Positions 2,151 through 21,468 of a DNA stretch of 22,152 nucleotides are shown here, in pieces. Source of the DNA: a virus. Position 1 is the stretch's first letter. Each line of letters begins with the position of its first letter. The notes under the pieces were generated by a model that did not search any database, was not told the origin of the DNA, and saw only the letters and a program-made list of their open reading frames with translations. The translations under genes and the position numbers were made by a program. The stretch spans positions 1 to 22,152 of the IMG/VR virus record IMGVR_UViG_3300012936_004285. One strand, written 5' to 3'.

Positions 2151-2155
2151 CCTTT
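2151..2155 (-). promoter_or_regulatory. Ribosome binding site choosing the 2143 start of the GapR-like gene
   Basis: AAAGG followed by A lies seven bases before the ATG at 2143-2141 and just after the alternative ATG at 2158. It favours the shorter protein. Confidence 0.55.
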
Positions 2156-5100
2156 CATGCTAATAGTCTGAAACCAGACGAAACTCGTCTTGTACTAAAA
2201 CCCCACTGGGGATTATAATCTAGTTTAGCCATATAAGGGCGGTTTAGGTGGATTATGTCTTTTTCTGGTCTCACACCCCAACACCTTATTGAAGTAATCT
2301 CACTGTTACTATCGATAACCCTCAAAATGTAATAATCTTTATTGTTTTTAGTTTTCTTTCTGATAAGTTCCCTTGGAACAAACCAAACAACTCCCAACTC
2401 TGCGTCATATTCGCTAATCGGAGGAATATATAGTTCTTCCAAGCGACGCATAACATTTTCATTCATTACTAAGTTTAACGGAAAAGTACCTGTCAAGTCA
2501 ACTAAATACTGTATTTTTTCTTCTTCCGAAAAGTCTCCCTCTGGTGCATACTTCTCAATGTTTTCAAGTAGATTCTTTTCCTTTCTTGGCCTATCAATCG
2601 CTACAGCAGATACAAAATGTTTTAGACCTGTGAAGCGATCATCCATAAGGCAGTTTAAAGTCTGACTTTTAATCAAGGCACTGAGAGCTTTTTTGTTTAG
2701 CTTGCTGTATACAATGTCTTCATTGAAAATAAAATCTTCAATTGTATTAAAGGGCCTATTATCAATAATCTGCTCAATTGCTTTGTCACCTAACCCCTTG
2801 ATCGAGGTGAGTGGCTGAATTAGAGTTTTACCATCTTCACTAATCTCCCACACTGTACCGGAAGTATTAATATTAAGAGGTTCAATCCCAAAACCGTAAG
2901 CCTTAGCAACGTTGATGGCCCTCTCTTTTCTAGAGTCTGGCTCTTTGTCTAGAAAAGCCGCCATCCAACACTCAGGGTAATAATTAAGAAGCCATGCACA
3001 CTGAAAGGATAAAACACAGTAGGAAACCGCATGAGACTTGTTAAAGCCGTATCCTGAAAAGTATTCAAACTTCTCCCATAAATTTCTCGCTTCATGTAAT
3101 CGCATTCCTTTCTCAAGGCATCCTACCTTGAACTTTTCCCATATGATATCCTTTTGTTCTTGAACCCCGTCTGTCCCTTTTTTAGTTAGAAGTTTCCTTA
3201 GTTTGTTACCCTCATCTAGAGACAGATTCTTGCCCAGCATGTGCGCAAGCATAGCAATTTGTTCTTGAAAAATAAGAAAACCAAAAGTTTCTTTAGTCAC
3301 AGATTCCACAATATCGTTATCGTACTCAACATCAAATGGGTTTTCTTTTGCGCTAATAAACTGTTTATCAACTCCCGCCGAAAGAGGACCTGGACGATAA
3401 ATGCTGGTAATGGCTGCAAGTTCAATTATATTGTTTGGCTTTGCATTCTTACAAAAGGATTGTGCGCCAGCTTCTGTGAACTGGAATATACCTGCCCACT
3501 TTCCTTGGTGAAAGATATTTTGCCAGACTTCTTTATCTGAGAGGTCAATACTTTCTGGGTGTAAGTGTTTTTCATAGAACGATTTCACATCTTCAAAAGT
3601 AGGATCAGGCACACCTTCGTATCTTTTTAAAATGTGATGAATCGCATTCTCTACCATTCGCAGAGAAGCCAAACCAAGAATATCGAACTTAATAAAACCC
3701 ATTGGCTCCAAGTGTCTAACATTTTGCCCCTCGCTCCAGGGTGTTTGCCTTACACCCCCACTGTTAATTAGTGGCATCCACTCATTAAGCTTTTCTCCGA
3801 TAACAACACCGCCAGCATGACGCGAGGCCGATCTTGTTTGTCCATAAAGTCTTTCAATGTGATTCTTAATATCAGGATATTTCGCTAAAAACTTTTGCAA
3901 AGTTTCAGAATACTTCATCAATTCTTCAAAAGTAGGATTATAAACCCCTGCAGTGATACCATGAGCCTTCTTAGCTAGTGGTGTTGCTTCGAATATCATC
4001 TTGCTGGTTACTTTGTTGACTTCCTGGAAAGGCACTCCATAAAACTTGGAAATGTCCTTAACTAAGCTTCTTAATTGCAGGGTGTTCCAGTTTGTAATGG
4101 GCACAACTGTATCGTCGCCCCACTCATCAATAAGCTCTTCTTTCAAGGTCATCGGGTCCGAAACATCGTAGTCAATGTCAGGATATCCAGACCCGCCCTT
4201 CGTTAAAAATCTTTCAAATTGAAGGTTATATTTTATCGGGTCAATTTGGGTAATACCCAAGGTATAGGCAACTAGAGAACCAGCCGCAGAACCGCGTCCT
4301 GCCCCCACTAATTGCGATTTTGTAGCCCTGTCAGATATAGCTTTCATGGTCAAAAAATACTTACTAAAGCCACGATCATCGATAACTTCTATTTCTTTTT
4401 TGAGCCTTTCTGCATACTCTTTATTACGTGCCAAACCGAGTCCTCGGGCACCTTCGACACAGAGTCTGGCCAACGCTTCTCTTGGTGTGGCCCCAACAGG
4501 CACCACGAAATCAGGTAAGCGAACAGTATTATCAGGCATAAAATTGGCAATACGGTTATGGGCAATGTCATACGTTGCTTCAATAGATTTTCTAACCAAC
4601 TCGTCATCATATTTAACTTTTACCTTTTCTGAATATTTTTTATATGATTCCCACATTTGATCCCCATTTTTGGGGTATAGTTCATATCCGATCTCTTCTA
4701 CGTCAACTGGCAAATCATCACTAAGCCATTCAACCTTTCGTCCTAAAAAGCCCAGTCTCTTATATAGTTCCCTGTCTTTCCAAGCTTCTGGATTATAATA
4801 GTGACTATCAGCAGTTGAGATCAATTCAATCCCAAACTCATGATGCATTTGTATAATGTATTGATTTAGTTCGTGCTGTTCTGGTACGTCGTTCCATTGA
4901 AGCTCACCATACCATCGATCACCAAAAATAGACTGCATCTTTTGGGTTGTTTCCCTCATAGCATCCAGGATCGCATCGGGGCCGCTCTCTCTGTTCTCCC
5001 AATAATTGCCAGCATAAACTCCACCAAGACAAGCACTGGCAGCAATAACACCTTTGTTATACCTTTTGAGTGCAGCGTAATCTACACGGGGAAACCTATA

Positions 5101-5589
5101 GTAGTTTTCAGCACTGTAACTATCGGAAATTAGCTTAAAAATATTTTTAAGACCTTCTTGGTCCTGGGCTAAAAGAATTAGATGCCTTCTTCGGTTTAAA
5201 AGGCTTTTCATGGCCTTCTTAGATGCTTCATCCTCAACTGTTGTTCCGGTTTGGGTGTCGTCTAGTTGATTTTTATTTTTTACTCGCTCTCTAGCCTGTT
5301 CATATTCTTTTCTCCAGTTTGCGATAGAGGGCAAAAAGTATGCTTCAACGCCAAAGATCGGTTTAAAGTTCTTGCCCTGACTTTGCATTTTCTTGGCATG
5401 CAATACTTGATACGCTAGACCATTCTGGTTACCGTGATCAGTAAGTGCGAGCGCGTCCATTCCGTTATCATATGCAAAATCCATGTGCTCCGCAGGATAA
5501 CCCAGAGCATCAAAGATGCTCCCTGCAACACTGTGAGCGTGCAGTCCTACAAATTTAAGTTTTGACTCAACCCTATTGGATGGTTTCAA
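2155..5589 (-). CDS. dnaE: DNA polymerase III alpha subunit (family C)
   Basis: A replicative family-C polymerase of 1144 residues, close to the 1160 of E. coli DnaE, and apparently intact. Domains in order: PHP domain (about 10-270, with HAHS at 17-20, LTDHGNQNG at 49-57 and DSHYY at 261-265); palm with GAGRGSAAGSLVAYTLG (429-445); catalytic Asp pair in PDIDYD (D471, D473) and third Asp in KFDILGL (D636); fingers with YRPGP (732-736), FLIFQEQ (772-778) and GYGFNKSHAVSY (847-858); helix-hairpin-helix IKGLGDKA (931-938); and an OB-like C-terminal region (about 1080-1144). No 3'-5' exonuclease domain is fused. Partial retention of PHP His/Asp residues leaves PHP proofreading possible. The start is TTG at 5589 with a strong GGAGG; the gene overlaps its upstream neighbour by 17 bp. 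The T4 family-B polymerase is not in the window. Confidence 0.96.
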   Translation of the reverse strand: MKPSNRVESKLKFVGLHAHSVAGSIFDALGYPAEHMDFAYDNGMDALALTDHGNQNGLAYQVLHAKKMQSQGKNFKPIFGVEAYFLPSIANWRKEYEQARERVKNKNQLDDTQTGTTVEDEASKKAMKSLLNRRRHLILLAQDQEGLKNIFKLISDSYSAENYYRFPRVDYAALKRYNKGVIAASACLGGVYAGNYWENRESGPDAILDAMRETTQKMQSIFGDRWYGELQWNDVPEQHELNQYIIQMHHEFGIELISTADSHYYNPEAWKDRELYKRLGFLGRKVEWLSDDLPVDVEEIGYELYPKNGDQMWESYKKYSEKVKVKYDDELVRKSIEATYDIAHNRIANFMPDNTVRLPDFVVPVGATPREALARLCVEGARGLGLARNKEYAERLKKEIEVIDDRGFSKYFLTMKAISDRATKSQLVGAGRGSAAGSLVAYTLGITQIDPIKYNLQFERFLTKGGSGYPDIDYDVSDPMTLKEELIDEWGDDTVVPITNWNTLQLRSLVKDISKFYGVPFQEVNKVTSKMIFEATPLAKKAHGITAGVYNPTFEELMKYSETLQKFLAKYPDIKNHIERLYGQTRSASRHAGGVVIGEKLNEWMPLINSGGVRQTPWSEGQNVRHLEPMGFIKFDILGLASLRMVENAIHHILKRYEGVPDPTFEDVKSFYEKHLHPESIDLSDKEVWQNIFHQGKWAGIFQFTEAGAQSFCKNAKPNNIIELAAITSIYRPGPLSAGVDKQFISAKENPFDVEYDNDIVESVTKETFGFLIFQEQIAMLAHMLGKNLSLDEGNKLRKLLTKKGTDGVQEQKDIIWEKFKVGCLEKGMRLHEARNLWEKFEYFSGYGFNKSHAVSYCVLSFQCAWLLNYYPECWMAAFLDKEPDSRKERAINVAKAYGFGIEPLNINTSGTVWEISEDGKTLIQPLTSIKGLGDKAIEQIIDNRPFNTIEDFIFNEDIVYSKLNKKALSALIKSQTLNCLMDDRFTGLKHFVSAVAIDRPRKEKNLLENIEKYAPEGDFSEEEKIQYLVDLTGTFPLNLVMNENVMRRLEELYIPPISEYDAELGVVWFVPRELIRKKTKNNKDYYILRVIDSNSEITSIRCWGVRPEKDIIHLNRPYMAKLDYNPQWGFSTRRVSSGFRLLA

Positions 5590-5782
5590 TTAGTTCCTCC
5601 ATTTCACCCATAATATACTCAAGTGTTTCCTTGAATGGTTGCATTGTAAATCCCTTTGCTTTTTCACAAAAGGCATCTAAAAATTCTTGTTGATCCCTGC
5701 TTAAGAAAATATAATTTGTTGGAAATCCAATATTTTCTTTTACAAAGTGTGGCAAATCATTATAAAACTCTTCGCTATTCAT
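5573..5782 (-). CDS. Small acidic protein of unknown function
   Basis: A 69-residue acidic protein, predicted mostly helical, with an N-terminal segment NSEEFYNDLPHFVKENIGFP and a Glu-rich C-terminal helix ending MGEMEELIETIQ. I do not recognise a family. Coding status rests on a good ribosome site (GGGAG six bases before the ATG) and tight overlaps on both sides: 8 bp with the upstream 291-residue gene and 17 bp with dnaE. Its 3' end carries the dnaE ribosome binding site, so its translation may be coupled to dnaE and set polymerase output. There are no cysteines in CxxC pairs, no membrane segment and no signal peptide. Confidence 0.65.
   Translation of the reverse strand: MNSEEFYNDLPHFVKENIGFPTNYIFLSRDQQEFLDAFCEKAKGFTMQPFKETLEYIMGEMEELIETIQ
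5596..5600 (-). promoter_or_regulatory. Ribosome binding site supporting the TTG start of dnaE
   Basis: GGAGG lies exactly six bases before the TTG at 5589-5587, inside the last codons of the upstream 69-residue gene. Translation from TTG keeps the FVGLHAHS start of the PHP domain complete. Confidence 0.8.
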
Positions 5783-6650
5783 TTTCTTCTCCCGCTTTTG
5801 AATATTCAGTGTACTTTATAAGTCTATCATTTGGCCTATAAATTTCCAAGCTTTCTTTTGAATTTAAAAAAGAATGGTAATTGTTCCAATTGTCAATCGG
5901 GTAGTACCATGGAATTTCATAGCTGTTACTTGTTTCTATATTAGCAGAACCAAATATTTTGTCAAGTGTAAAGTTTCTTGATGACCATCTTTCCTTTGCT
6001 TTTATATCCATGTTGCCGCCTGTGCATGATTGTTTAAGATTCCAGACGTATTGTTTATACTCATTAGAGTTCATCGTAAAAGATAGGTAGTCACCTGTCT
6101 TTATAGACTTGCCATCATAAGTAAGAAAAAACTGATTTGTATGAGATATTTTCTTTCTGTAGTCCATAATCTTGGATGGGTCGTATACGCCATAAGGAAA
6201 GCAAACATAGTACCTGCTTGGAACAAGCCATTTGCTTATTTTTTTACTGACTATAAAGCTTGTTAGTGCACCATGGAATGCAGACCAACCTAAACTATCT
6301 CTTCTGTCGCGATCTTTCGGGTGTATTGGAGTGTAAAAAACAGGTATTTGTCTTCTAGCCTCCGCTGGAAACTTTTTATATTTTGACCTATCCATATAAT
6401 ATGGATCCTCAATAAAGTCACCTATCCTGCTTCTAATTAAAGGTTGAATGTCGTCATTGCAGACTATCCATATAGTTTCACAACCTGCATAGCCACATTC
6501 AATAACTGCTCTTTCAAGTGCTAAATAGTTCTTAGAAATTGGCTGCAAACAGCTGTGCCAGGGAAATCCAAAGTCTGTCTTTAGTCCAGACACAGGAATG
6601 ATCCCCGCTAGATGAAAAGCACTAATATTGTTTGATCCTGGTTCAAGCAT
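5775..6650 (-). CDS. Conserved-type phage protein, possible GT-A nucleotidyltransferase fold
   Basis: A 291-residue soluble protein. The N-terminal 75 residues read like the start of an NDP-sugar pyrophosphorylase or other GT-A nucleotidyltransferase: a hydrophobic strand with Gly (AGIIPVSGLKTDFG), then PW..CLQPI..NYLALERAV, then AGCETIWIVCNDDIQPLIRSRIGD. In that family the corresponding parts are GxGTR...KPLLPI...PLIE and the GVxxIxVVT strand. The usual GGxGTR loop and PKP lysine are not clearly present, so activity is doubtful. The rest is rich in Tyr, Trp and Lys, with motifs such as WLVPSRYYVCFPYGVYDPSK. The ATG overlaps the previous stop by 8 bp. It sits with the 253-residue gene between the MopE/VWA gene and dnaE. 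A role in sugar or nucleotide modification is a guess. Confidence 0.55.
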   Translation of the reverse strand: MLEPGSNNISAFHLAGIIPVSGLKTDFGFPWHSCLQPISKNYLALERAVIECGYAGCETIWIVCNDDIQPLIRSRIGDFIEDPYYMDRSKYKKFPAEARRQIPVFYTPIHPKDRDRRDSLGWSAFHGALTSFIVSKKISKWLVPSRYYVCFPYGVYDPSKIMDYRKKISHTNQFFLTYDGKSIKTGDYLSFTMNSNEYKQYVWNLKQSCTGGNMDIKAKERWSSRNFTLDKIFGSANIETSNSYEIPWYYPIDNWNNYHSFLNSKESLEIYRPNDRLIKYTEYSKAGEENE

Positions 6651-7404
6651 AACTACTAAGTAGTATATCTTTGTCCTTTGTAGAATTCAAGAATTTTATG
6701 CTTTCTGAATCTTTATATATGTGTTCGCTCGTAAGAAATACTTCTCTATTCGAAGGTTCAAGTTTTACTGAGTTTCTTCTTACATTTCCATTTTTTTGAT
6801 ACCCAGATTTAGAGCCGAGTATGCCAGCTTCTTTTAGAACACTGTGTAATTTAAACTTTACCATAGTATCAGAATATTCAAACTCAAATAGTTGGTCTTT
6901 AGTGAGAGTAGAGACAGTAACAATATCTTTGTGATTCCGACTACCATCTACTCTATAAGACTTATAGAAATATATTTCTTCTGCTAAGTTGTCCTCCGAA
7001 CTTAAAAAACTAGTTTCATGTGGAGAGCAAGATCTGACATTCACCCAATCGTAGACTTTGTAAATTTCCTTGTTGTGTTTTATTATTTCATTGTCACAAA
7101 CTATTCTATTTCCGTTAAAAACAAAGCAACTATCAAACTGTATTTCTAATTTTTGATGGCGAGCTTGAACTACTTTGCAGTTACCCTCTTTTAAACGAAC
7201 AGACTCTATATTTTCAGTGTTTAGAACCTGGCCACGAAAAGACATTTCAAATAAAAGTTCTGACCAAAGCTTTAATGATTCAACTCTATCAAAGCGAAAG
7301 GGCTTGTAGTATGTGTCACATATTAAGCTATACTTGTTTTGATGTGCATAGATAACCGAAGGTAGACAGCCACCTATGACAATATTAGGGTAAGCAAGCT
7401 TCAT
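6643..7404 (-). CDS. Hypothetical protein with a Rossmann-like N-terminus
   Basis: A 253-residue protein I cannot assign. It opens with a beta-strand and Gly-rich turn, NIVIGGCLPSVIYAHQNKYSLIC (split as strand, loop GGCLPS, helix, strand), which recalls the dinucleotide-binding start of FAD/NAD proteins such as UDP-galactopyranose mutase-type enzymes, but GxGxxG is not intact. The rest is beta-rich and charged, with no cofactor motif I can recognise. The start overlaps the end of the MopE/VWA gene by 20 bp, and its own end overlaps the 291-residue gene by 8 bp. The two therefore form a translationally linked pair and probably act together. Candidate roles include an inactive flavoprotein scaffold or a modification enzyme partner; both are inference. 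Confidence 0.55.
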   Translation of the reverse strand: MKLAYPNIVIGGCLPSVIYAHQNKYSLICDTYYKPFRFDRVESLKLWSELLFEMSFRGQVLNTENIESVRLKEGNCKVVQARHQKLEIQFDSCFVFNGNRIVCDNEIIKHNKEIYKVYDWVNVRSCSPHETSFLSSEDNLAEEIYFYKSYRVDGSRNHKDIVTVSTLTKDQLFEFEYSDTMVKFKLHSVLKEAGILGSKSGYQKNGNVRRNSVKLEPSNREVFLTSEHIYKDSESIKFLNSTKDKDILLSSYA

Positions 7405-9622
7405 CTATAATTGACATTAGATTTTCGTACATCTGGTTTTGATTCATGGTAAGCTCAAAGTTAATTCCGTTTGCTGAATTAGCAAGCCTTGTCCAATCTG
7501 CATTTCCCATACCACCTGAAAATGTGTACAGTTTTAAATCGGGTGTGCCAGCCATTGCATCTCTAACAGTTGCGGCATTAATACCAGGATCAAGATATGT
7601 CTGTGGCTCTTCATCACTAAAAACTATAATTATCTTTCTAGCTCCTGCTCTCCAGTTTATTATAAAATTTTCCTTTTCTGGTGTTGAGCCTGTACCATTA
7701 CCAACCCATCTTGCAGCTGCAACATCAAAGTTGTTATTTGCTGTGACATTTTGTACCGCAAAATACATTGCATCTAGCAGCATCTCTGAACCTGTGTCCA
7801 TGCCCTCGTTTCCAAGTTGTGCAAATCTATTTAAAAACACATTAAAAGGTGAGATGTTTGATACCAGTATCAAGTTTTCATGTGTTCCCGGTGTGTCTTT
7901 GGGGCCAACAACGAGACCCCACTGTAATTGATCTTCAGCCTGGAATTGTGTTGCAAATCTATTTAGGGCAACTTTTACTGCTTCAATCTCTTCTACCATA
8001 GAACCAGACCAGTCAACGATAAACAAAATGTCTGTATCAGCTATTTCTTCACCATAGTCCACTTCGCCATCGCAGTCGTTATCAGCACCATCGCACACCT
8101 CTTCTTGCGGTGTAACTTCACCCAAACAGTAGTTTCTGGTGAATACATCAACCTCTTCCCAGTTGCCCCAAACTCCTTCTTTACATATCATCTCACCCGG
8201 TAGACATACGCCGACACCCGCTGTATTTTCTGGGCCAGTATAACACGGGGACGTCACACCTTCGTCGATGGCTTCATCGCAGTCTTCATCAAAATTATTA
8301 CAAAGTTCATTTTGCAGTGCCACACCAAGGCGAGGGTCGCATGGTCCTTGGTTTTGTGGCAGATATGCACATATTGCCTGGCAGTCTGACATTGTGAGCG
8401 CACTACACTCTTCATCTACACATTCACAAGTTTTAAAACCTTGACCACATATCAGTGGTGGTTCAGAGCAGGGTATCAGGACTCCAACATCCTGTAGTGT
8501 GCAAGAACAATCAAGCCCCTCATCTACTGCTCCGTCACAGTCATCGTCTTCGCCATTACATATGTTACCTTCTTCAACCGGCTGCCTAGCTGTACAAGAT
8601 ATCCAGTTTCCATCTGAACATGTTTCAAATCCAAGTTCGCATTCTGTTTGACACTCTCTAAGTAAGTCTTCGTCTATCGCACCATCGCAGTCATTATCTA
8701 GGCCATCACACTCATCTGCAGGTACAGGGCCGCAACCATCACAAACATTCCTCTGCCCCTCATCTGTGTCTCCATCACAGTCATTATCCTGAAAGTCGCA
8801 AACCTCTTCTCTAGGTTGTTGTGCTGTACAATCTGCCAATTCACCATCAACACAAACTGCCTGACCTGCTTCGCATATTGTTTCACAAGGGAAAAAACCC
8901 TCGTCAACCCTCTCATCACAATCATCATCAACCAGGTTGCAGGTTTCCTCTGGCAGTTCCTGATCACCGCGACATTCACATAAGGTAAACCCTTCATCAA
9001 CGGGGCCATCGCAGTCGTTGTCAATCGCATCACACACCTCTTCTACAGGTGTAACCTGATCGATACACTCTCCGTAACCATATATTTGATGAATCTCTCC
9101 TGTCCATTCATCTTCAACCTCTTCTAAAAGTTGGCACGTAGATATCCCTGATTTGCATGGTGGATTTTTAATTGTATTGGGAGGGCCTGTGTAGCAAGAG
9201 CGTGCTAACAATTCATTTTGTGAATACTCATCTTCGTCTGTTGCTCCATCACAGTCATTATCAACGCCATCACAAACTTCCATTCTAGGAAAATTTATTT
9301 GAAAGCATTGACTCCAGTATGTAATATTGCAAGATTGCTGGCCTTCTGCACAAGGCCCAAGAAACTCTTCTAAGACACAAGGTCTGCGATGCTGGTGAAA
9401 CTCACAAACTATCGTTTCCGCATCTGGGAGAAGCGCGTCAGGCAAAGCGTCGCGACGTGCTTGAATTACTCTGGAATCAACCGCACTGTCTTCTATTGCC
9501 ATATCATAATTGTTTATGCGTAAAGGAGACGCATCCTGCGGTAGTTCTGATCCTTGTACAACAGTTTCGTCATTGCAAGATAGTAACAAAAACGAACAGA
9601 CAAAGATGAGTGCTTTTTGCAT
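7385..9622 (-). CDS. Secreted lipoprotein with eight MopE-type Cys/Asp repeats and a VWA domain
   Basis: A 745-residue predicted lipoprotein. Residues 1-16 form a short hydrophobic signal ending in the lipobox LLSC, with C16 as the lipid site and Asn at +2. Residues 117-522 hold eight copies of the C-x4-D-x-D-C-D-x3-D-E pattern (typical form VCDGxDNDCDGxxDE), starting near C117, C197, C228, C275, C305, C355, C441 and C510, as in the MopE family of putative metal-binding repeats. Between them are two CYTGP...C...C modules (143-163, 460-480). Residues about 528-745 are a VWA domain with the MIDAS motif D537-W-S-G-S and a downstream SDEEPQTY segment. This architecture is typical of Myxococcota and related bacteria and implies an extracellular, Ca/Mg-dependent adhesion role. 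It lies between the co-chaperonin gene (1-base gap) and two unknown genes. Confidence 0.9.
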   Translation of the reverse strand: MQKALIFVCSFLLLSCNDETVVQGSELPQDASPLRINNYDMAIEDSAVDSRVIQARRDALPDALLPDAETIVCEFHQHRRPCVLEEFLGPCAEGQQSCNITYWSQCFQINFPRMEVCDGVDNDCDGATDEDEYSQNELLARSCYTGPPNTIKNPPCKSGISTCQLLEEVEDEWTGEIHQIYGYGECIDQVTPVEEVCDAIDNDCDGPVDEGFTLCECRGDQELPEETCNLVDDDCDERVDEGFFPCETICEAGQAVCVDGELADCTAQQPREEVCDFQDNDCDGDTDEGQRNVCDGCGPVPADECDGLDNDCDGAIDEDLLRECQTECELGFETCSDGNWISCTARQPVEEGNICNGEDDDCDGAVDEGLDCSCTLQDVGVLIPCSEPPLICGQGFKTCECVDEECSALTMSDCQAICAYLPQNQGPCDPRLGVALQNELCNNFDEDCDEAIDEGVTSPCYTGPENTAGVGVCLPGEMICKEGVWGNWEEVDVFTRNYCLGEVTPQEEVCDGADNDCDGEVDYGEEIADTDILFIVDWSGSMVEEIEAVKVALNRFATQFQAEDQLQWGLVVGPKDTPGTHENLILVSNISPFNVFLNRFAQLGNEGMDTGSEMLLDAMYFAVQNVTANNNFDVAAARWVGNGTGSTPEKENFIINWRAGARKIIIVFSDEEPQTYLDPGINAATVRDAMAGTPDLKLYTFSGGMGNADWTRLANSANGINFELTMNQNQMYENLMSIIDEACLP
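8057..9274 (-). repeat. Protein-level repeat array: eight MopE-type Asp/Cys repeats
   Basis: Eight degenerate copies of about 13-15 codons with the core DNDCDG..DE or close variants (DDDCDE, DEDCDE), separated by 31-86 residues of Cys-rich linker. At the DNA level they appear on the plus strand as recurring variants of tcatcgcagtcattatc-like words. The copies differ at many third positions, so the array is old or selected for diversity rather than recently duplicated. Confidence 0.85.
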
Positions 9623-9623
9623 T

Positions 9624-9944
9624 CTATAGCTCGCTAATCATTCCGCAAACATAGTTTTCAAGGATGATATAGTAGTCTTTATCTTTATAATTTACTTTCT
9701 CAATCATAGAGCGATCCACGATTACAGTAGAGTTCTCTTCAAATTTGCGCGTATCTTTACTATGCCGTAAAAATGTATTAGAACAATCGCGAGCAACATC
9801 TAGTATCGTTGCAGATATGTATTTGTCTTCTTTGGGTTTGTAGTCATCTGGTAGCAAGACACCTTTGGTATCTTTCTCTTTTTTAAAGTGTGGCACAATC
9901 AGTATGTGCCTATTAACTGGTTTAAGGGTTGGCGCTATTTTCAT
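9624..9944 (-). CDS. GroES/gp31-like co-chaperonin
   Basis: A 106-residue protein of the cpn10 fold, probably the cap for the host GroEL chamber during folding of capsid protein, as T4 gp31 is. The N-terminus LKPVNRHILIVPHFKKEKD corresponds to the GroES opening strand, RPLxDRVLV. It is followed by a mobile-loop candidate with the hydrophobic contact GVLLP (28-32), then YISATILDVARD (42-53) for the GroES A.G.VVAVG strand, STVIVDRS (72-79), and a final strand KDYYIILENYVCGMI (89-103). The length is between GroES (97) and gp31 (111). AAGGAAG lies just before the ATG. It follows the RNR gene after a 44-bp gap and precedes the MopE/VWA gene by one base. Confidence 0.75.
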   Translation of the reverse strand: MKIAPTLKPVNRHILIVPHFKKEKDTKGVLLPDDYKPKEDKYISATILDVARDCSNTFLRHSKDTRKFEENSTVIVDRSMIEKVNYKDKDYYIILENYVCGMISEL

Positions 9945-13273: not shown

Positions 13274-14242
13274 TTATGGAAGATTAAAATCCGACACCAT
13301 CTTATTAAATGACTGGAAAAGATCATTTAAAGATATCTCCCCGATGCCGTCTTTGTGCATCATGCCTCTTAAAGAGGTCTTGTTAAACTCTGGAACGTGT
13401 TGTTCTAGTGTTTCTTGTATTCTGTTTCTACCCTGTATTGATATCGACGGAGAATACAATTGCATAATTTGATAGTTTTCTTTGATCAACTTTTCGGAAT
13501 TAGCAACATTGGTATAGACTTTTAAAATCTCAGAATTTTGCTCGGCAAAATTTATAACATCTGACAACATTGCTTCCTTTTCAGATTTCATAAATGGAAA
13601 CCTCTTTGCAACAGTGGCAAGGCCGACTCCCTTGACGCCCTTTAGATTATCACTCTTATCTCCAACAATAGCTCTAGCCATCGCAAAATTGTTTGGGTGA
13701 ATTTCAAATTTCTCTAAGATTTTATTTTTGTTTAAAATCTCATCCTGTGTCGGACGGAAAAGAATAGTGTTATCATCTAAAAGTTGGATGTAATCCTTGT
13801 CGCTAGATACAATCACTTTTTGTGCGCCACTTAAAAAGCTAAGCCTACAAACATAAGCAATTACATCATCTGCTTCCACATGTGGCTCCATAAATTGAAT
13901 CACTGGAGTAGAGTTTAGATACTCTATAATTCTAAGTTGCTGCCAGATTCTATTTAGTTTTTCCTGCTCCTCTGTCAAGCTGCTGTTGCCCCTGTTTAGC
14001 CTGATTGGCTTTCTCCCCTCTTTATAGTTTTTGTTGACCGCTCTTCGCTTTTGAGAACCACCTTCACCGTCCCAGACAACCACAATTGCACTGGGCTTAA
14101 TAGTTCTAGTCAGCTTATTTAATATTTTTAAAAACCCCTTGGACCCACCAATTGGTTGGCCATTTGAAGACAAGCTAGGGTCAACTATATAAGAGCGCAA
14201 AAACTGATTTTGCGCATCGATGATCATAATCCTGTCGTTCAT
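13274..14242 (-). CDS. 5'-3' exonuclease / flap endonuclease (RNase H type)
   Basis: Phage FEN-family nuclease, expected to remove RNA primers and 5' flaps from lagging-strand fragments. The 322 residues are near T4 RNase H (305). Acidic metal ligands fall in the family order: D9 (MIIDAQN), D58 (VVWDGEG), E123/D125/D126 (VEADDVIAY), D148/D150 (VSSDKDYIQLL) and D195/D198 (VGDKSDNLKGVKGVG). The last leads into the helix-three-turn-helix that grips DNA. Its start shares one base with the UVDE stop (TGATG), with GAGGG about eight bases upstream, so the two are coupled. The family-A polymerase in this window lacks a fused nuclease domain, so this gene probably supplies that activity in trans. Confidence 0.92.
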   Translation of the reverse strand: MNDRIMIIDAQNQFLRSYIVDPSLSSNGQPIGGSKGFLKILNKLTRTIKPSAIVVVWDGEGGSQKRRAVNKNYKEGRKPIRLNRGNSSLTEEQEKLNRIWQQLRIIEYLNSTPVIQFMEPHVEADDVIAYVCRLSFLSGAQKVIVSSDKDYIQLLDDNTILFRPTQDEILNKNKILEKFEIHPNNFAMARAIVGDKSDNLKGVKGVGLATVAKRFPFMKSEKEAMLSDVINFAEQNSEILKVYTNVANSEKLIKENYQIMQLYSPSISIQGRNRIQETLEQHVPEFNKTSLRGMMHKDGIGEISLNDLFQSFNKMVSDFNLP

Positions 14243-15174
14243 CAGGCTGCCCTCTCTAGCAATAGATCACGATACCTGATTAAAGACAGCTCTTTTGCCT
14301 TTGCTTCAATCATCATATCGTAGTCACACCCATAATTATTAACAGGTTCGTATACATAGTCAGAGTGAGCTTGAGGTCTAATTTTATTATCACCTTGCTC
14401 TTCTCTTCTAGATTCAGAAAGGTGTACTACTGGCTTAATACCATCGGGCCATGTGGACGCTGCCATCTTTACCGCCTCTTCTTCAGATTGGCCGCCAGTG
14501 CAAAATTTAAAATGGTGATAGTCAAAAACGATTGGAACGCCTACCCTGCTGTATATCAACTCATAAAGGTGTTTAACTGACCACATAGAAGCCTTATCAT
14601 CATTCTCCAGGGTAAGCCTAGCTCTTGTGCCTTCATCTAATTTTAAGAAATTCTCACACCACCTATTTGCCGTACCTTCAAAGTCTCCACCGTAAGTTCC
14701 GCCAACATGAATGTTGATTTTGTTGTAGTGACTTGGGATAAAACCCATCAAGTCCATCATCTCTGAATGTTGGTTTAATTCTTTGATTGTTTTGTTGATA
14801 ACAGATTCTTTGGGTGAGCCAAGAACATTGAAAGGTCCAGGGTGAAAAGTTAGTCTCTGGTTGTTTAGTGTTACAAACTCTCCTACCTGGTCAAGTACAT
14901 AGCAAATCTCGTTGTAATCTGGCAAGTCGCCAAATTCATACTCACTCATCCATGGAAAAATATCTGAAGACATTCTGTAAAACTTGATATTGTTTCGCTC
15001 ATTCCATTCTACAATCTTTTTTAAGTCTTTTACATTCTGCAAAGCCAGCTCGGATGCGTAAGAAATACCCTTCTCTAAAAAGGTTTTCTTAATCATTGAG
15101 CGATTAGTTGTAATTCTTTTTGATTTTGGCAGACTGGAGAAGCCCATGTTGATGCAAGCATAGCCAAGATTCAT
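14242..15174 (-). CDS. uvsE: UV damage endonuclease (UVDE/UvsE)
   Basis: Nicks DNA 5' of UV photoproducts and starts an alternative excision repair. The 310 residues form the family's TIM barrel. Candidate metal ligands are in the expected order: H111 (TFHPGP), H156 (NIHVGG), E190 (LTLENDD), D218 and H221 (FDYHH), H251 (VVHLSE), H270 (QAHSDYV) and E289 (MIEAK). The N-terminus LGYACINMGF matches the family start. From memory, characterised enzymes have a modified Lys two residues before the HLS histidine; here that site is Val and the nearest Lys is four residues before, so chemistry may differ. It is the first gene of the long operon, behind a sigma70-type promoter, with AAAGG about nine bases before the ATG. 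Confidence 0.92.
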   Translation of the reverse strand: MNLGYACINMGFSSLPKSKRITTNRSMIKKTFLEKGISYASELALQNVKDLKKIVEWNERNNIKFYRMSSDIFPWMSEYEFGDLPDYNEICYVLDQVGEFVTLNNQRLTFHPGPFNVLGSPKESVINKTIKELNQHSEMMDLMGFIPSHYNKINIHVGGTYGGDFEGTANRWCENFLKLDEGTRARLTLENDDKASMWSVKHLYELIYSRVGVPIVFDYHHFKFCTGGQSEEEAVKMAASTWPDGIKPVVHLSESRREEQGDNKIRPQAHSDYVYEPVNNYGCDYDMMIEAKAKELSLIRYRDLLLERAA

Positions 15175-15206: not shown

Positions 15207-15235
15207 ACAATACCAAAAAAGACGGGTTATGTCAA
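15207..15235 (-). promoter_or_regulatory. Sigma70-type promoter for the long replication operon
   Basis: On the minus strand TTGACA (15235-15230) is followed by a 17-base spacer and TATTGT (15212-15207). The -35 box is a perfect consensus and overlaps the stop codon of the phosphatase gene; the -10 box matches at 4 of 6 positions. Alternative -10 candidates lie a few bases downstream in the palindromic gtataatac. It precedes uvsE by about 33 bases and is the only promoter-like gap before the run of genes down to IMPDH. Confidence 0.6.
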
Positions 15236-15912
15236 CTTGATTTAATGTTTGGGAAGAGATATTTTTTAGCTATACTTTTGCCCTCTTTGTTGTCGCTAGG
15301 ATAGTGAGCGCCGCGAACAATCCTTGAGTGTTCTATTTTTTCAGCAATATCATACAACTCGTCTTTATGTTTTGGGTGCTTGTCTGCTAGGTAGTAAGCT
15401 AAAGTCCAAGCTTGAGCCGTGTGACCGCTTGGGTATGCTGGAGTATCGTCAGTCTCAGTTTTAATCGAGCTAACATCATAGCCAACTTTTGGGCCTAGTT
15501 GTTCTGGTCTTGGTCTGTTATACCTAACTTTTAACTTGAGAGTTATTATAGCTACATCCTTTACAATGTCCTCTAACATGTCTTTATCAAAGTCAAGATC
15601 ATTGTCTTTTAAGTATTTAACAAACATTTGTTTAGGTCTTTTGTCTGTTTGCTCTAATTCTTTCTTTGATAATTCTTTATTGTTTGTCATGGAATTGAGA
15701 ACTTTTTTAAGCTCGCCCTTAACAGCATCGCTATCGTTTGCTGGATATTTAGTTATCGGAATATCAGAAAGTTCAACGTCAATAACTTTTGTTTGTTGAG
15801 ATAGTCTCTTCTTGTGCTTATTATGCTTTAATTCACCATACTTAAGGTCTCTTATTTCTTGCTTTTTGTTTTCAATAAGAAATTTATTCCAACTTTCCAT
15901 AATGGCTTTCAT
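15232..15912 (-). CDS. Soluble PAP2-type acid phosphatase with a capsid-targeting-like N-terminus
   Basis: A 226-residue PAP2/vanadium-haloperoxidase-fold phosphatase. All three family motifs are present: K128-x6-R135-P, P161-S-G-H164, and S196-R197-x5-H203-x3-D207, where H203 is the expected phospho-acceptor. There are no transmembrane helices, so unlike lipid phosphatases it is soluble, and no secretion signal is seen. The N-terminus MKAIMESWNKFLIEN resembles the T4 capsid-targeting leader of internal proteins (MKTYQEFIAE, cut after the Glu by the prohead protease), with a possible cut after LIE. Residues 16-110 are Lys-rich and helical. The start is ATG at 15912, since the GTG at 15921 lies inside the Shine-Dalgarno sequence. 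The gene stands alone between a terminator and a promoter. The substrate is unknown. Confidence 0.85.
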   Translation of the reverse strand: MKAIMESWNKFLIENKKQEIRDLKYGELKHNKHKKRLSQQTKVIDVELSDIPITKYPANDSDAVKGELKKVLNSMTNNKELSKKELEQTDKRPKQMFVKYLKDNDLDFDKDMLEDIVKDVAIITLKLKVRYNRPRPEQLGPKVGYDVSSIKTETDDTPAYPSGHTAQAWTLAYYLADKHPKHKDELYDIAEKIEHSRIVRGAHYPSDNKEGKSIAKKYLFPNIKSS

Positions 15913-15920
15913 GTAAGGCA

Positions 15921-15926
15921 CCTCCT
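15921..15926 (-). promoter_or_regulatory. Strong ribosome binding site of the PAP2 phosphatase gene
   Basis: AGGAGG lies eight bases before the ATG at 15912-15910. The in-frame GTG at 15921-15919 overlaps this site and so cannot be the start. This matters because it places the leader-like MKAIMES sequence at the exact N-terminus. Confidence 0.8.
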
Positions 15927-16009: not shown

Positions 16010-17149
16010 TTATTCTTCCTTGACTGGCGGGTCTCCTGATTCCTCTGACTCATAAAAGTCAGCGGCGTTTCCTTCTCTATTACAGAATTTCATTATAACA
16101 TCTTCATCAATGATTTGTAAAACTCTTTTTCTAAAATTTTCATCTTTTAGTTCTTCGGTCCACCTTTTGCGCTGGAACTTCTTTTCTGTCCCATCCTCAA
16201 AAACAAGTGTGTACCAAGCGCCAGACTGCTTTAAGCTGTTTGAAATTTGAATTGCTTCAAACCAACTCTCTTCATCCTGGACACCGACTGTGTCGGTATT
16301 ACCCCAAAGAATTTTAAAGTTACAATGACGTCCTGCAGTGCCAAACCTTGACTTCTCAAGTTTGGCCTTCACCTCCGAACCAACTCGGAAGCCATTATCA
16401 TCCAATACAAAAGCCGCCTTTGCTTTTCTGCCTGTCAGCCAAATCCTCAAAGAGTATGCATAATGCATAGCTTTACCACCAGGTGTTACCCACGGTGTTA
16501 CCATAGCCTCTGATGGAGATCTTGTGATGTTAGTTTTTAGCTGGTTAAGGACTAAGAAAGTAGCCTGATTATTAGCGATTGGAACGGTCAGTTTTGACAT
16601 TCCCTTCGATAAAATCCTAGGCTTAACAGCCATTGAAGATTGTGGATTAAAGTCCCCTTCAACATCAGAGATAGATGGCGTCAAAGCCAAAGAATCCCAA
16701 ATAAAAAGCCACTTGTTATCTGTAGATAACAACTCTTCAATAGTTTCTAGTACAAACTCAACTGATTCTGCCTGGACATACATAAGCCTAGACAAGTCAC
16801 AGCCAGCTCTTTCTAGAAAGCCTGGATCAATAGCAGACTCGGAATCAAAATAGACAACATCAATGCCCATCTTTTGTGCATTACCAGCAATTTGTGCTGC
16901 CATAAAAGATTTGCCTGTTGCCTCAAGACCTGCAATCTCTACAACTTTACCAACAGGAATGCCTGCTAGTTTACCCTTGCAGATAATTGAATCTAACCAC
17001 CTGGAACCAGTTGGAATCCACTCCTTTACCTCAGTTGGGTTGTCCTCCTTAAGAGAGTGGGCAATCTCCCTGCCCGCTTTCTTATTAAGAAGTTTTCTTA
17101 TTTCGTCTACATTTAAAGACCCTGTTTTTGGTTTAACCATTTTAAGCAA
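16010..17149 (-). CDS. recA: RecA/UvsX-type recombinase
   Basis: Strand-exchange ATPase for recombination-dependent replication and repair. The 379 residues carry Walker A GLEATGKS (74-81), catalytic Glu in FDSESA (E104), Walker B WLFIWDSL with D152, and a DNA-binding loop region VLNQLKTNITRSPSE through VTPGGKAMHYAYS. The N-terminal segment KEWIPTGSRWLDSII matches the RecA/UvsX pattern for the strand before the core. The C-terminal tail is acidic (YESEESGDPPVKEE), as in many RecA proteins. The start is probably TTG at 17149, with GGAGG exactly six bases upstream; the ATG at 17140 would be 15 bases away. It overlaps the DUF262-type gene by 8 bp and ends at a strong terminator. Confidence 0.93.
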   Translation of the reverse strand: MLKMVKPKTGSLNVDEIRKLLNKKAGREIAHSLKEDNPTEVKEWIPTGSRWLDSIICKGKLAGIPVGKVVEIAGLEATGKSFMAAQIAGNAQKMGIDVVYFDSESAIDPGFLERAGCDLSRLMYVQAESVEFVLETIEELLSTDNKWLFIWDSLALTPSISDVEGDFNPQSSMAVKPRILSKGMSKLTVPIANNQATFLVLNQLKTNITRSPSEAMVTPWVTPGGKAMHYAYSLRIWLTGRKAKAAFVLDDNGFRVGSEVKAKLEKSRFGTAGRHCNFKILWGNTDTVGVQDEESWFEAIQISNSLKQSGAWYTLVFEDGTEKKFQRKRWTEELKDENFRKRVLQIIDEDVIMKFCNREGNAADFYESEESGDPPVKEE

Positions 17150-18464
17150 CTTTATCCTCCTTTATTTGATCAACTTCCTTCTTTGCCAAGAGTGAATTAA
17201 ACTTTGAACTAGATTTTAGTTTGTCAATAAGAGTCTCGCTTCGGCTAGCACGGTCCCCACTTTGATGAGGAAGTTGCGACTGTCTATGATAGAAGGCACT
17301 TTCACTAGGAGTTTGTCTATCATTTTTCAATGCCGACTTTACTTCTGCTGCAAACTTTGCTTGTGAGTCTGCGTAGAGGGAAATATCAGTGTTTACAACT
17401 AAATCATAAAGAACATCTTGGTCAAGAACCCTGCAATCTGAATCGTAAATGTGTGTGCATGCATGAAGCAGTGCCCAGCAGACTCTTGCAGGAATAATTT
17501 TATTGTTAAGTTTTCCCTCGTTTGAGATAACCAAGTCCTGTAGGGCGTACAATATACCCTCTACCCTTTCAAGCTCACTTGAAAGATAGGGAGAATTGTC
17601 CTCATCTTCGATGGAATACGCAGCCTTACCTCTATTATAAAAATAATCTAATTCACTTTTTCCCAAGGGTAATCCCACAGGTGTATTTAATTTGCCCTTA
17701 CTACTAGTAGTCTCGTCCTTAGTTTGTCTATATTCTCTAATTAGAGAAAGGGCAAACTTTGCCACTAGTTCATCATCAACCATTCTAGCAATGTGCTTTT
17801 TGGATACCAAATGCTTAAATAGGGGTGCAAAGTCGCTTGACATATCCCTCACCCACTCTGCGATTGCAGATTTAATTGCATTTCGCATTTCTTGAGCTGA
17901 TTGTTTAACTCCAGCATTTAAAGCAATATAAAGTTCTGATAGTTCGTCTACTGTTAAAGTGTTAAAGCGCGTAACTGTAGTTGCAGTCTGTTCCAAATTT
18001 AATTTAACAGACTCAGGAAAGTCTTTGTAGAATTTGTTTTTTATATATACATCTACACCTTCATTGTTACGAAGCCAACCAGTGAATGCAAACTCATTGT
18101 TATATAACTCTCTTAAGGTTACTAGTCTATTTTGAGCATCTATATTAATATAGTACTTGGCCCGATCATACATTTCTTGGTAGTAATGTTTTGAGTTAGT
18201 GCACTTTGTTGGAGAGCATGGATCTTCAAAATACTCCTTTGCTTCTCTAACTTGTGCAAAGACAAACTTAGATACAGCCCACCCCTTTGCAAAACTCTCT
18301 ACATACTCACATTTCTGCTTCTTTGACCACACCTCACGTCTTTGAAAACTGCGATCAACTTCTACATTATCTTCTGAAAACTTTTTCAGTAATGAACGCA
18401 ACCGATATTCGCTTTCTATTTTGTGCTCTTCTGCCAAAAGATGGCTATCAACTTGATTTTTCAC
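17142..18464 (-). CDS. DUF262/ParB-like domain protein of unknown function
   Basis: A 440-residue protein whose N-terminal 120 residues follow the DUF262 (ParB/sulfiredoxin-like) pattern: V.VDRSFQRREVWSKKQ (34-49), YVESFAKGWAVSKFVF (54-69), and YINIDAQNRLVTLREL (105-120). The usual family motif DGQQR is D109-A-Q-N-R113 here. Two cysteines (C83, C88) lie in an insertion between these motifs. The C-terminal 300 residues are helical and not recognised; there is no HNH (DUF1524) motif of the kind found in GmrSD-type nucleases. It sits directly upstream of recA with an 8-bp overlap, so a role in recombination or genome protection is plausible but unproven. The start is GTG at 18464 with AGGAGG eight bases upstream. 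Confidence 0.75.
   Translation of the reverse strand: MKNQVDSHLLAEEHKIESEYRLRSLLKKFSEDNVEVDRSFQRREVWSKKQKCEYVESFAKGWAVSKFVFAQVREAKEYFEDPCSPTKCTNSKHYYQEMYDRAKYYINIDAQNRLVTLRELYNNEFAFTGWLRNNEGVDVYIKNKFYKDFPESVKLNLEQTATTVTRFNTLTVDELSELYIALNAGVKQSAQEMRNAIKSAIAEWVRDMSSDFAPLFKHLVSKKHIARMVDDELVAKFALSLIREYRQTKDETTSSKGKLNTPVGLPLGKSELDYFYNRGKAAYSIEDEDNSPYLSSELERVEGILYALQDLVISNEGKLNNKIIPARVCWALLHACTHIYDSDCRVLDQDVLYDLVVNTDISLYADSQAKFAAEVKSALKNDRQTPSESAFYHRQSQLPHQSGDRASRSETLIDKLKSSSKFNSLLAKKEVDQIKEDKVA
17156..17160 (-). promoter_or_regulatory. Ribosome binding site supporting the TTG start of recA
   Basis: GGAGG lies six bases before TTG at 17149-17147, inside the end of the DUF262-type gene. The in-frame ATG at 17140 is 15 bases away, too far for normal initiation. 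The spacing equals that of the dnaE and dut TTG starts. Confidence 0.7.
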
Positions 18465-19453: not shown

Positions 19454-20290
19454 TTATCTTTGAATTTGTGAAGAATATTCTACAACAAACCCAAAATTGG
19501 TTTCATAGTCAGTTTCGTATATTGAATAACTAACTCCAACATTTTGGGTTTGTTTTTCTTTCAACTGATTTAGGATTTTTTTATGCAAACCTTTCTCGCT
19601 TTCAAGTGTTGATTTATTTATAGCATAATAGTATCTTTTTTCTTTTACTTCGTCAAGAGAAAAGAACATATTTTCTTGATTATTTTCCAACTCAAAAAAA
19701 CCAATGGTATGTATCCTAGAAGTTTCAGAAACGTCTGAGAACGTAGAACTGACCGGTTTAACGTGATTAAAATAGTTAATCATATGGAAGGCATCAGCTA
19801 CCGTTTTATTAAGTAAATTAAAGTGTTCTGATATGGAAACCTCTTGCAAAAACTCTTCGATAGTTTCGTTGGATACCAATAGAATATTTTTAAAAACTGC
19901 AGACCTAGCATACTCTTGAAGTACACCATATACTACTCTTTCTTGTAGCTTTTCCTTTTCACTCAAAAAAGAAACATCAGGCTTTATGTACAGAACAGAT
20001 ATACTGCACTTCTTAGAGAGGTACTCCAAGATAACCAAAGACGCAGCTGCAGCCCTTGAGCAGCCGCTAACCATAAAAAGAATGTCACCTTCAACTTTAG
20101 TAAGCTTACGCTTAAAATTTAAATTAACAGTTTCATAATCCTCTGGATTGTTGAGGGTTGGTATTTTTATAAAGTTATTTTGTTTTCTATCGCCTTTGTC
20201 ATTTATCTTATAAACCTTGTACTGTTCATAATTTTCAAAATGGCTTGCAAGGTTGCAGGCAGAGGTTCCTAGAGCTATTATTTTTTCCAT
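19454..20290 (-). CDS. Divergent FtsZ/tubulin-like protein (tentative)
   Basis: A 278-residue protein with an FtsZ/tubulin-like order of elements. Residues 3-16 (KIIALGTSACNLAS) resemble the first strand and Gly loop (xVIGVGGAGxNAV). Residues 67-94 (EGDILFMVSGC-SRAAAASLVILEYLSKK) match the strand and helix around the tubulin signature GGGTGTG, but the loop reads GCSRAAAAS. SVLYIKPDVSF then EKLQERVVYGVLQEY (98-127) resemble the following strand and helix. NILLVSNETIEEFL (135-148) resembles VIPNDRLL. NKTVADAFHMINYF (161-174) resembles the AF..AD..L helix. With the Gly signature altered, GTP hydrolysis is doubtful. It overlaps the family-A polymerase gene by 13 bp, with GAGG just before its ATG. 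The assignment is by eye; another Rossmann-like fold remains possible. Confidence 0.6.
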   Translation of the reverse strand: MEKIIALGTSACNLASHFENYEQYKVYKINDKGDRKQNNFIKIPTLNNPEDYETVNLNFKRKLTKVEGDILFMVSGCSRAAAASLVILEYLSKKCSISVLYIKPDVSFLSEKEKLQERVVYGVLQEYARSAVFKNILLVSNETIEEFLQEVSISEHFNLLNKTVADAFHMINYFNHVKPVSSTFSDVSETSRIHTIGFFELENNQENMFFSLDEVKEKRYYYAINKSTLESEKGLHKKILNQLKEKQTQNVGVSYSIYETDYETNFGFVVEYSSQIQR

Positions 20291-21468
20291 GATACCTCTT
20301 TCATGTCCAGCAAATTCTTACCCATCTTTACGTTCACTCTTGTCTTACCAAATCTAGTTTCTTCAAACATTTTAATTATAGATTTAGCAACCGATATATC
20401 TTCTGAAGAGTAATCTAAAATCAACGAGTCATGCATCATAAAAGCAATATTACTGTTTTTGTCTTTAAGAGTCAAGTTTATTTTTTGAGCTTGCTCTAAT
20501 AAAATATCATTAGAAAAAGACTGTAATATATAATTTACAGCGTGAAACTCATCACATTCTATGACTCTGCCATAAGGAGTAGTAATTTTCTCTCCGTCGT
20601 AAAACTTTGATTTTATACTATCTCTGTCATATTCTTTATTTAAAAGGTGATCGCTAGACTCCTGGTTATAGAGCCAGGCAAATACTCTTTTCTTTGCTTC
20701 ATCTCTGGTAATTGAATTATTAAAAACATTTCGACAGTTCCAATCGTGTATGTCTAAGTCTGGCTGTTCTCTATCTAATAAAAACAGCAGTGCTCTCAGT
20801 TCTGCACCGTTAACATCTATCTCTAGAAATAGATCGTTGTTTGGCACAACAAACTTGCGCAACTCTCTATCTAGATTTAAAATAGGAAAAGTCTTCTTTT
20901 TACAAGTTAGTCTTCCAGTCTTTGTACCAAAGATATCATAATCTATTCTCATAGTAAGTTTTTTAATCTTGCGAAAAAACCTATTTATCTTTGAAGGGCC
21001 AAGTGATCTTTTTAACTTTTTCATATCTAATTTGATGTTATTTTTTTTAATGTCTGAAACAAGTTTTGATGCACCAAGCAGATGATCGTAAATACTAGTC
21101 TTCTGATTGTTTTCTATAATATGTTTGGTTATGGTATTTTTAACCTGATAATAATCAATCAATATATGTTCTGGAATTATCTCGTACAAGCAATTTGTAT
21201 TGCAATCAACCTTGGCTGTTACCAGTGCCTTTTTGACTCTGTCCATTTTTCTATTTACTCTGTCCAGATCTTCTTTAAGATGCGGGGGGCATGCTTTATC
21301 TATAGTTTTAGCCTGAATTAGAAGTTGGGCTATGGTAGCTTTGTCTGAAACGTCATCAAAATATGACCAAGTACCTGAATATTCTAAATTTTCTGCTTCA
21401 AAAATCTGCCCACTATCAGAAACAAAAAGATTGCAGTCTCCCTTGTTGTCAATTTTTTGAATAATCAC
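20278..21468 (-). CDS. Compact family-A DNA polymerase (polymerase domain only)
   Basis: A 396-residue PolA-type polymerase with no exonuclease domain. Residues 1-130 are unassigned. The core has TGRLT (184-188), motif A as LEIDVNGAELRALL with catalytic D218 and E223, motif B as R255-x3-K259-x3-F263-x3-Y267, Q316 in the YILQSFSND segment, and motif C as MMHDSLILD with catalytic D347. These are the key residues of the fold, although motif C has HDS instead of the nearly universal HDE, and thumb and fingers are much reduced. Phe at the F762-equivalent site predicts discrimination against dideoxynucleotides. The start is GTG, sharing one base with the previous stop (TAGTG). Proofreading and primer removal would have to come from other genes, such as the exonuclease at 13274-14242. 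It coexists with DnaE. Confidence 0.85.
   Translation of the reverse strand: MIIQKIDNKGDCNLFVSDSGQIFEAENLEYSGTWSYFDDVSDKATIAQLLIQAKTIDKACPPHLKEDLDRVNRKMDRVKKALVTAKVDCNTNCLYEIIPEHILIDYYQVKNTITKHIIENNQKTSIYDHLLGASKLVSDIKKNNIKLDMKKLKRSLGPSKINRFFRKIKKLTMRIDYDIFGTKTGRLTCKKKTFPILNLDRELRKFVVPNNDLFLEIDVNGAELRALLFLLDREQPDLDIHDWNCRNVFNNSITRDEAKKRVFAWLYNQESSDHLLNKEYDRDSIKSKFYDGEKITTPYGRVIECDEFHAVNYILQSFSNDILLEQAQKINLTLKDKNSNIAFMMHDSLILDYSSEDISVAKSIIKMFEETRFGKTRVNVKMGKNLLDMKEVSWKK

Follow-up and report, generated by a model that had tools for sequence, protein, structure and literature searches.

What is a gene for a large, cysteine-rich lipoprotein, built like a bacterial surface protein, doing in the replication operon of a phage? 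The question arises from virus record IMGVR_UViG_3300012936_004285, a complete, linear record of 22,152 bases that is perhaps a fragment of a genome and that was analyzed here at its full length (the window). A preliminary description had reported a 745-residue protein at positions 7385-9622, with a lipobox, eight MopE-type repeats, two CYTGP modules and a von Willebrand factor A (VWA) domain with an intact MIDAS motif. The reading frame and all of these elements were recovered (by pattern, Pfam and fold prediction), with the strand corrected: the plus-strand reading of this interval contains many stops, and the 745 open codons lie on the minus strand. The features are as follows.

7385-9622, minus strand: MopE-VWA lipoprotein gene, 745 aa, ATG start
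9575-9622, minus strand: signal peptide and lipobox LLS-Cys16 (pattern), Cys16 being the predicted acylation site
8978-9445, minus strand: N-terminal Cys-rich region, residues 60-215, a mosaic segment closest to type B (segment BLAST)
8051-9274, minus strand: MopE repeat array, eight motifs and two CYTGP modules (Pfam and pattern)
7388-8038, minus strand: VWA domain with MIDAS residues D537/S539/S541/T610/D670 (Pfam, fold prediction and motif)
9624-9944, minus strand: GroES co-chaperonin, the upstream neighbour (Pfam Cpn10, E=4.2e-6)
6643-7404, minus strand: p253, conserved, no function assigned, downstream of the VWA gene at the main site; no Pfam match
5775-6650, minus strand: p291, conserved, no function assigned, in at least 564 viral contigs, including relatives without the VWA gene
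2155-5589, minus strand: DnaE-type DNA polymerase III alpha subunit, the backbone gene of the operon

The N-terminus of the protein matches the pattern of a bacterial-type (SPII) lipoprotein signal, with an n- and an h-region followed by the lipobox cysteine. PF11617 (MopE) was detected over seven stretches (E=1.1e-25; 90 bits versus a cut-off of 27), while eight Asp/Cys motifs were found by pattern, seven of them within residues 117-454 and the eighth just before the VWA domain; the CYTGP motifs are located at residues 143 and 460. The match to PF00092 (VWA; E=2.9e-5) was barely above the gathering score (24.8 versus 23.8 bits), and the MIDAS set is full. The protein contains 54 cysteines and has a pI near 4, and its acidic MopE array is of a metal-binding type. 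In an AlphaFold2 prediction, for which an alignment of 46 family members served as input, residues 220-745 were folded confidently (pLDDT mostly 75-96) and residues 17-219 were not. Residues ∼524-745 of the predicted structure assume a VWA fold (best Z 18.1, rmsd 2.6 Å over 180 residues), and the matching VWA domains come from, among other proteins, a TFIIH subunit and integrin beta chains; the family profile had no match among PDB sequences.

A shared VWA fold, here a modeled one, gives no function by itself. The same fold is present in other phage proteins (TerF of the Ter operons, CobT-like proteins and VWFA entries of BFVD), whose match is structural only, at 9-16% identity. The Ter and CobT types belong to systems that work inside the cell. 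One BFVD entry of 266 aa, A0A516KYY5, gave a match with E=2e-20 and 26% identity; it may represent a fragment of a member of the MopE-VWA lipoprotein family.

Close homologues of the window protein were detected in 72 IMG/VR viral contigs, at 42-62% identity and usually at the same site in one replication operon. The 745 open codons, these homologues and a dN/dS of ∼0.1 (12 pairs, partly redundant) together argue that the reading frame is not a chance one, and the last of these values indicates purifying selection on the gene. An alignment search with the window type of protein (type A) returned 438 related viral contigs, a count that may include relatives with MopE repeats only. A second type, B, comprises paralogues of ∼690-780 aa that share the lipobox-MopE-VWA plan, carry the MIDAS motif D[VI]SGSM and occupy the same site in other phages. 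The corresponding search returned 171 related contigs, many without p291 nearby, and in nearly all of the loci read from it a VWA domain stands behind a MopE array, most with a recognizable lipobox. Among the contigs of the wider family are records of 120-280 kb; in a tblastn search of 50,697 deposited phage records, no homologue was found.

Within the close family, a lipobox is present in every complete N-terminus (consensus [LIVA]-x-[SAG]-C-[SAN]-D), although a few rows required an internal start codon and the automatic pick sometimes fell on an earlier cysteine. The family proteins contain 46-57 cysteines each (7.2% of residues), mostly invariant, as would suit a protein that folds outside the cytoplasm. 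The MIDAS sequence DxSGS occurs in every representative, while the loop 2 threonine varies among some of the family members. The predicted MopE-VWA lipoproteins constitute a conserved family of large, mostly marine phages, which in the clade of the window are related to the Far-T4 group. Lipoproteins of phages are already known, and so are VWA adhesins of bacteria. Of a widespread phage family that combines the two, the literature searched (open-licence papers) contained no account and, as the preliminary description had stated, no phage function for this architecture.

The placement of the gene in a phage replication operon was borne out by relatives at the same locus with phage neighbours. 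In the window, 1 nt separates the lipoprotein gene from groES, and its other end shares 20 nt with p253, all on one strand towards dnaE. The earlier statement that it stands between a co-chaperonin gene and genes leading to dnaE thus holds on the groES side, and on the other side dnaE follows only after p253, p291 and one further small ORF. The usual order in the relatives is ssb-recA-exo-dnaB-rnr-p90-groES-thyX-VWA-p253-p291-(p69)-dnaE-dut-guaB; the window operon has the opposite orientation, and its thyX and p90 genes are found across dnaE from their usual place. Between the window and the relatives, identity of the core replication genes reaches 81-87%. A T4-type capsid gene was found in 14 of the 16 long records that carry the lipoprotein gene, and the nearest named isolates by capsid protein are Flavobacterium phage immuto, Microcystis phage Mel-JY01 and Rhodothermus phage RM378, whose type of capsid belongs to the Far-T4 group (PMC4360716, PMC7198788). 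The window itself, at 22 kb, has no capsid gene, and its assignment to this group is made through operon synteny and gene identity.

The domain plan had been read earlier as that of surface proteins of Myxococcota and related bacteria, with a captured host gene as one possible origin and a myxococcal host as a likely consequence. The window protein shares the Asp/Cys motifs of PF11617 with the MopE-repeat proteins of Myxococcota and with MopE of Methylococcus capsulatus, and its CYTGP-MopE module was detected in 122 of 189 Myxococcota genomes versus 7 of 299 Pseudomonadota genomes. Given this spread, the ancestry of the module may lie in Myxococcota-like bacteria. The phage-type VWA domain, however, gave only weak matches in the same 189 Myxococcota genomes (best E 6e-7), and none of the bacterial (Myxococcota) loci read had it fused to MopE repeats. 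In that sample, the closest relatives of the phage gene were not found on Myxococcota chromosomes. As to the host, the proposal is half supported: the MopE modules point to Myxococcota, and base composition does not, with a GC content of 38-46% in the phage loci versus a median of 69% in the Myxococcota loci read. The nearest isolates by capsid, which infect Flavobacterium, Microcystis and Rhodothermus, also speak against a myxococcal host. The host should therefore not be read from the MopE repeats alone.

A single contig from a Halieaceae metagenome-assembled genome (MAG), L074, carries cellular genes and, at its end, a truncated MopE-VWA gene of the phage type (L074:5703-7109). A host assignment from this contig was rejected; it is probably chimeric or mis-binned, and the gene runs off its end. 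A search for p291 in 398 Pseudomonadota genomes, intended to find infected MAGs, gave no match and, having no positive control, is uninformative. The abundance of MopE-CYTGP modules in Myxococcota and the existence of L074 are what could be said for a recently captured host gene with no role in the phage, or for an assembly chimera. Such an origin is most improbable, considering the dozens of independent phage contigs with the gene at one syntenic locus, the low dN/dS, the lack of a close phage-type VWA domain in the Myxococcota sample and the doubtful nature of L074 itself. Capture as a recent event is contradicted by a family that is widespread, diverged and under purifying selection in phages. 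A chimeric contig and relatives confined to chromosomes, both named beforehand as outcomes that would count against a phage gene, are likewise contradicted, by the 72 viral contigs and by closest relatives that are overwhelmingly phage contigs with phage neighbours.

Within the phages, the gene has a history of its own. Residues 60-215 of the window protein are nearest to type B (∼51%, in L090/L109), and the remainder is nearest to type A (55-68%; segment BLAST). The window dnaE is closest to that of L091, and p291 to that of L110/L090, contigs which, as far as readable, belong to the type B subgroup. From these affinities, the window gene looks recombinant and its product looks like a mosaic of types A and B. 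Both types occur in tandem in L002, L090, L106 and L109. Mean identity is 52% for the VWA protein versus 81% for DnaE, and VWA distances correlate poorly with dnaE distances (Mantel r 0.24, versus 0.87 for dnaE and p253); p253 and p291 also diverge fast, so that divergence at this locus is not unique to the VWA gene. Faster evolution, recombination between paralogues and tandem duplication are as expected of a host-interaction protein. Most type A relatives bear a C-terminal tail of ∼30-60 residues, missing in the window protein, the terminal cysteine of which, judging from the coordinates, probably reflects the overlapping p253 start codon. The hypervariability of this tail prompted a search for a diversity-generating retroelement, which was rejected: no RVT_1 was found in the 16 long records, and no template-like repeat in the loci.

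What the protein might do can be framed from these properties. The main reading, to which we give a probability of about 0.4, is that it is an exported, adhesin-like outer-envelope lipoprotein resident in the phage, which alters the surface or envelope of the infected cell. The adhesin or superinfection-blocker role suggested in the preliminary description is plausible in this light. In this scheme, its expression would coincide with that of the replication genes; the host Sec and lipoprotein pathways would then export and acylate the protein, leaving it anchored in the outer membrane. This last placement is proposed since the protein has no Asp at position +2, the inner-membrane retention residue of E. 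coli lipoproteins. The MopE array, stiffened by disulphides and probably by Ca2+, would hold the VWA head off the membrane, and the MIDAS of the head would bind a protein ligand. MopE itself is stabilized by calcium (PMC3423442); the copper chemistry of MopE is not implied for the phage protein.

Our tentative first choice for the consequence is superinfection exclusion, in which the head would occlude or jam the phage's own receptor, acting alone or with an exported peptidoglycan hydrolase often encoded alongside. It is preferred on the grounds of operon position, fast evolution and the precedent of Llp, the receptor-blocking protein of phage T5, an early-expressed lipoprotein whose site of action is a receptor in the outer membrane (PMC9586334). 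Llp and the Cor proteins of the T1 type are likewise phage-encoded lipoproteins made during infection, but they are small and lack MopE repeats and VWA domains, and no sequence relationship is expected. The superinfection-exclusion lipoproteins known to us are all small, which counts against receptor blocking. As to timing, the gene is closely packed among replication genes, with overlaps, both in the window and in most of its relatives, as expected for early or middle expression, which we infer from gene order; such overlap need not mean early expression, as some relatives have a GH25 endolysin gene there. T4-type late promoters (TATAAATA) were uninformative as a clue to timing, the motif not being seen upstream of the capsid gene either.

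Ranked closely after receptor occlusion, and itself a doubtful reading, is a partnership in which the lipoprotein tethers or admits, at the outer membrane, an exported peptidoglycan hydrolase or protease encoded next to it, the envelope being remodeled or opened as infection ends. Of the 46 type A representatives (distinct loci), 13 have an SLT transglycosylase gene as the immediate upstream neighbour, often with an overlap between the two genes, and in L024/L025 and L050 the pair occurs outside the replication operon. A VanY carboxypeptidase is encoded two genes downstream in L250, L253 and L260, a trypsin-like lipobox protein adjoins in L223, L248 and L267 (two genes off in L259), and an exported HExxH-type protein is found near the gene in seven further loci, one with a sub-threshold SprT-like Pfam match. 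In total, 43 of 168 adjacent ORFs (25.6%) were predicted to be exported, versus 152 of 1417 other ORFs (10.7%; Fisher p=6e-7); the test ignores shared ancestry, and its heuristic miscalls the start regions of some p253 proteins as exported, so that the enrichment is suggestive. Relatives lacking the VWA gene keep p253-p291-dnaE and often carry an SLT, a GH25 or a weakly S-AdoMet-lyase-like gene at the same site. Conversely, most VWA loci, the window among them, have no adjacent hydrolase, SLT is missing from 10 of the 16 long records searched (some of them fragments), and we know of no lysis protein of such size and architecture. The SLT, VanY and protease neighbours could equally mean lysis or envelope attack. 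More doubtful still is the broader proposal that several large-phage lineages share a hitherto undescribed class of integrin-like, metal-stiffened outer-membrane lipoproteins, which with exported peptidoglycan hydrolases or proteases of the same locus would form an envelope-remodeling system of the infected cell.

Two further readings concern where the VWA head would be presented. CglB, a VWA surface protein of Myxococcus xanthus, is an outer-membrane lipoprotein adhesin of gliding. Compared by description only, it resembles the predicted phage protein in being an outer-membrane lipoprotein with a VWA domain, and it has no link to phages. By analogy, the infected cell or its debris might display the lipoprotein for aggregation or for capture of new hosts, a use that the architecture of a stalk with a MIDAS-bearing head and the typically myxococcal MopE modules would suit. 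We consider this unlikely, as surface exposure is itself a prediction and the gain for a lytic phage is speculative. Less probable again is that the protein belongs to the virion, for example as a fibre or adhesin, and bears its lipobox incidentally: a VWA domain with Cys-rich repeats would suit an external fibre, but every complete N-terminus carries the SPII signal, and the gene resides in the replication rather than the structural module.

Receptor occlusion retains first place, and the family supplies a concrete candidate protein for excluding superinfection or for remodeling the envelope. Among phage proteins reaching the host envelope, it is an additional conserved family of adhesin-like architecture, carried by uncultured phages for which no host-surface function has been assigned so far, and the recurrent SLT, VanY and protease neighbours offer a testable functional link.

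Several minor observations concern the neighbouring genes. The trypsin-like proteases with lipobox-like signals are encoded at L223:8073-8780, L267:7932-8651 and L248:4470-5522 (Trypsin_2, E=5.5e-18 in L267). At L133:2987-3676 and in similar loci lacking the VWA gene, the groES-p253 site is occupied by a gene of ∼230 aa that weakly matches S-adenosylmethionine lyase (E=1.5e-4, under the cut-off) and might serve anti-restriction. A single system linking the VWA protein with p253 and p291 was considered and rejected, as p253-p291-dnaE stay together in relatives without the VWA gene. In the loci read, p291 adjoins dnaE; like p253, it matches no Pfam family, and by eye its start resembles a GT-A nucleotidyltransferase, while that of p253 resembles a Rossmann/FAD protein. 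The distance from the dnaE start to dut varies from ∼3.4 to 5.6 kb among relatives (L003-L073), and in L042, L043 and L068 a split dnaE or rnr is seen; for these observations, inteins or inserted genes are possible.

Elsewhere in the window operon, all on the minus strand, a 440-aa protein encoded between ssb and recA (17142-18464) has a sub-threshold GmrSD_N match (E=9e-7) and also matches two PHROGs of unknown function. A PAP2-family phosphatase (15232-15921; Pfam E=4e-9) and a gene that by eye is UvsE-like (14242-15174) are mostly absent from relatives at this position. A short PolA-like protein of 396 aa (20278-21468) is encoded in the same operon as the DnaE-type polymerase.
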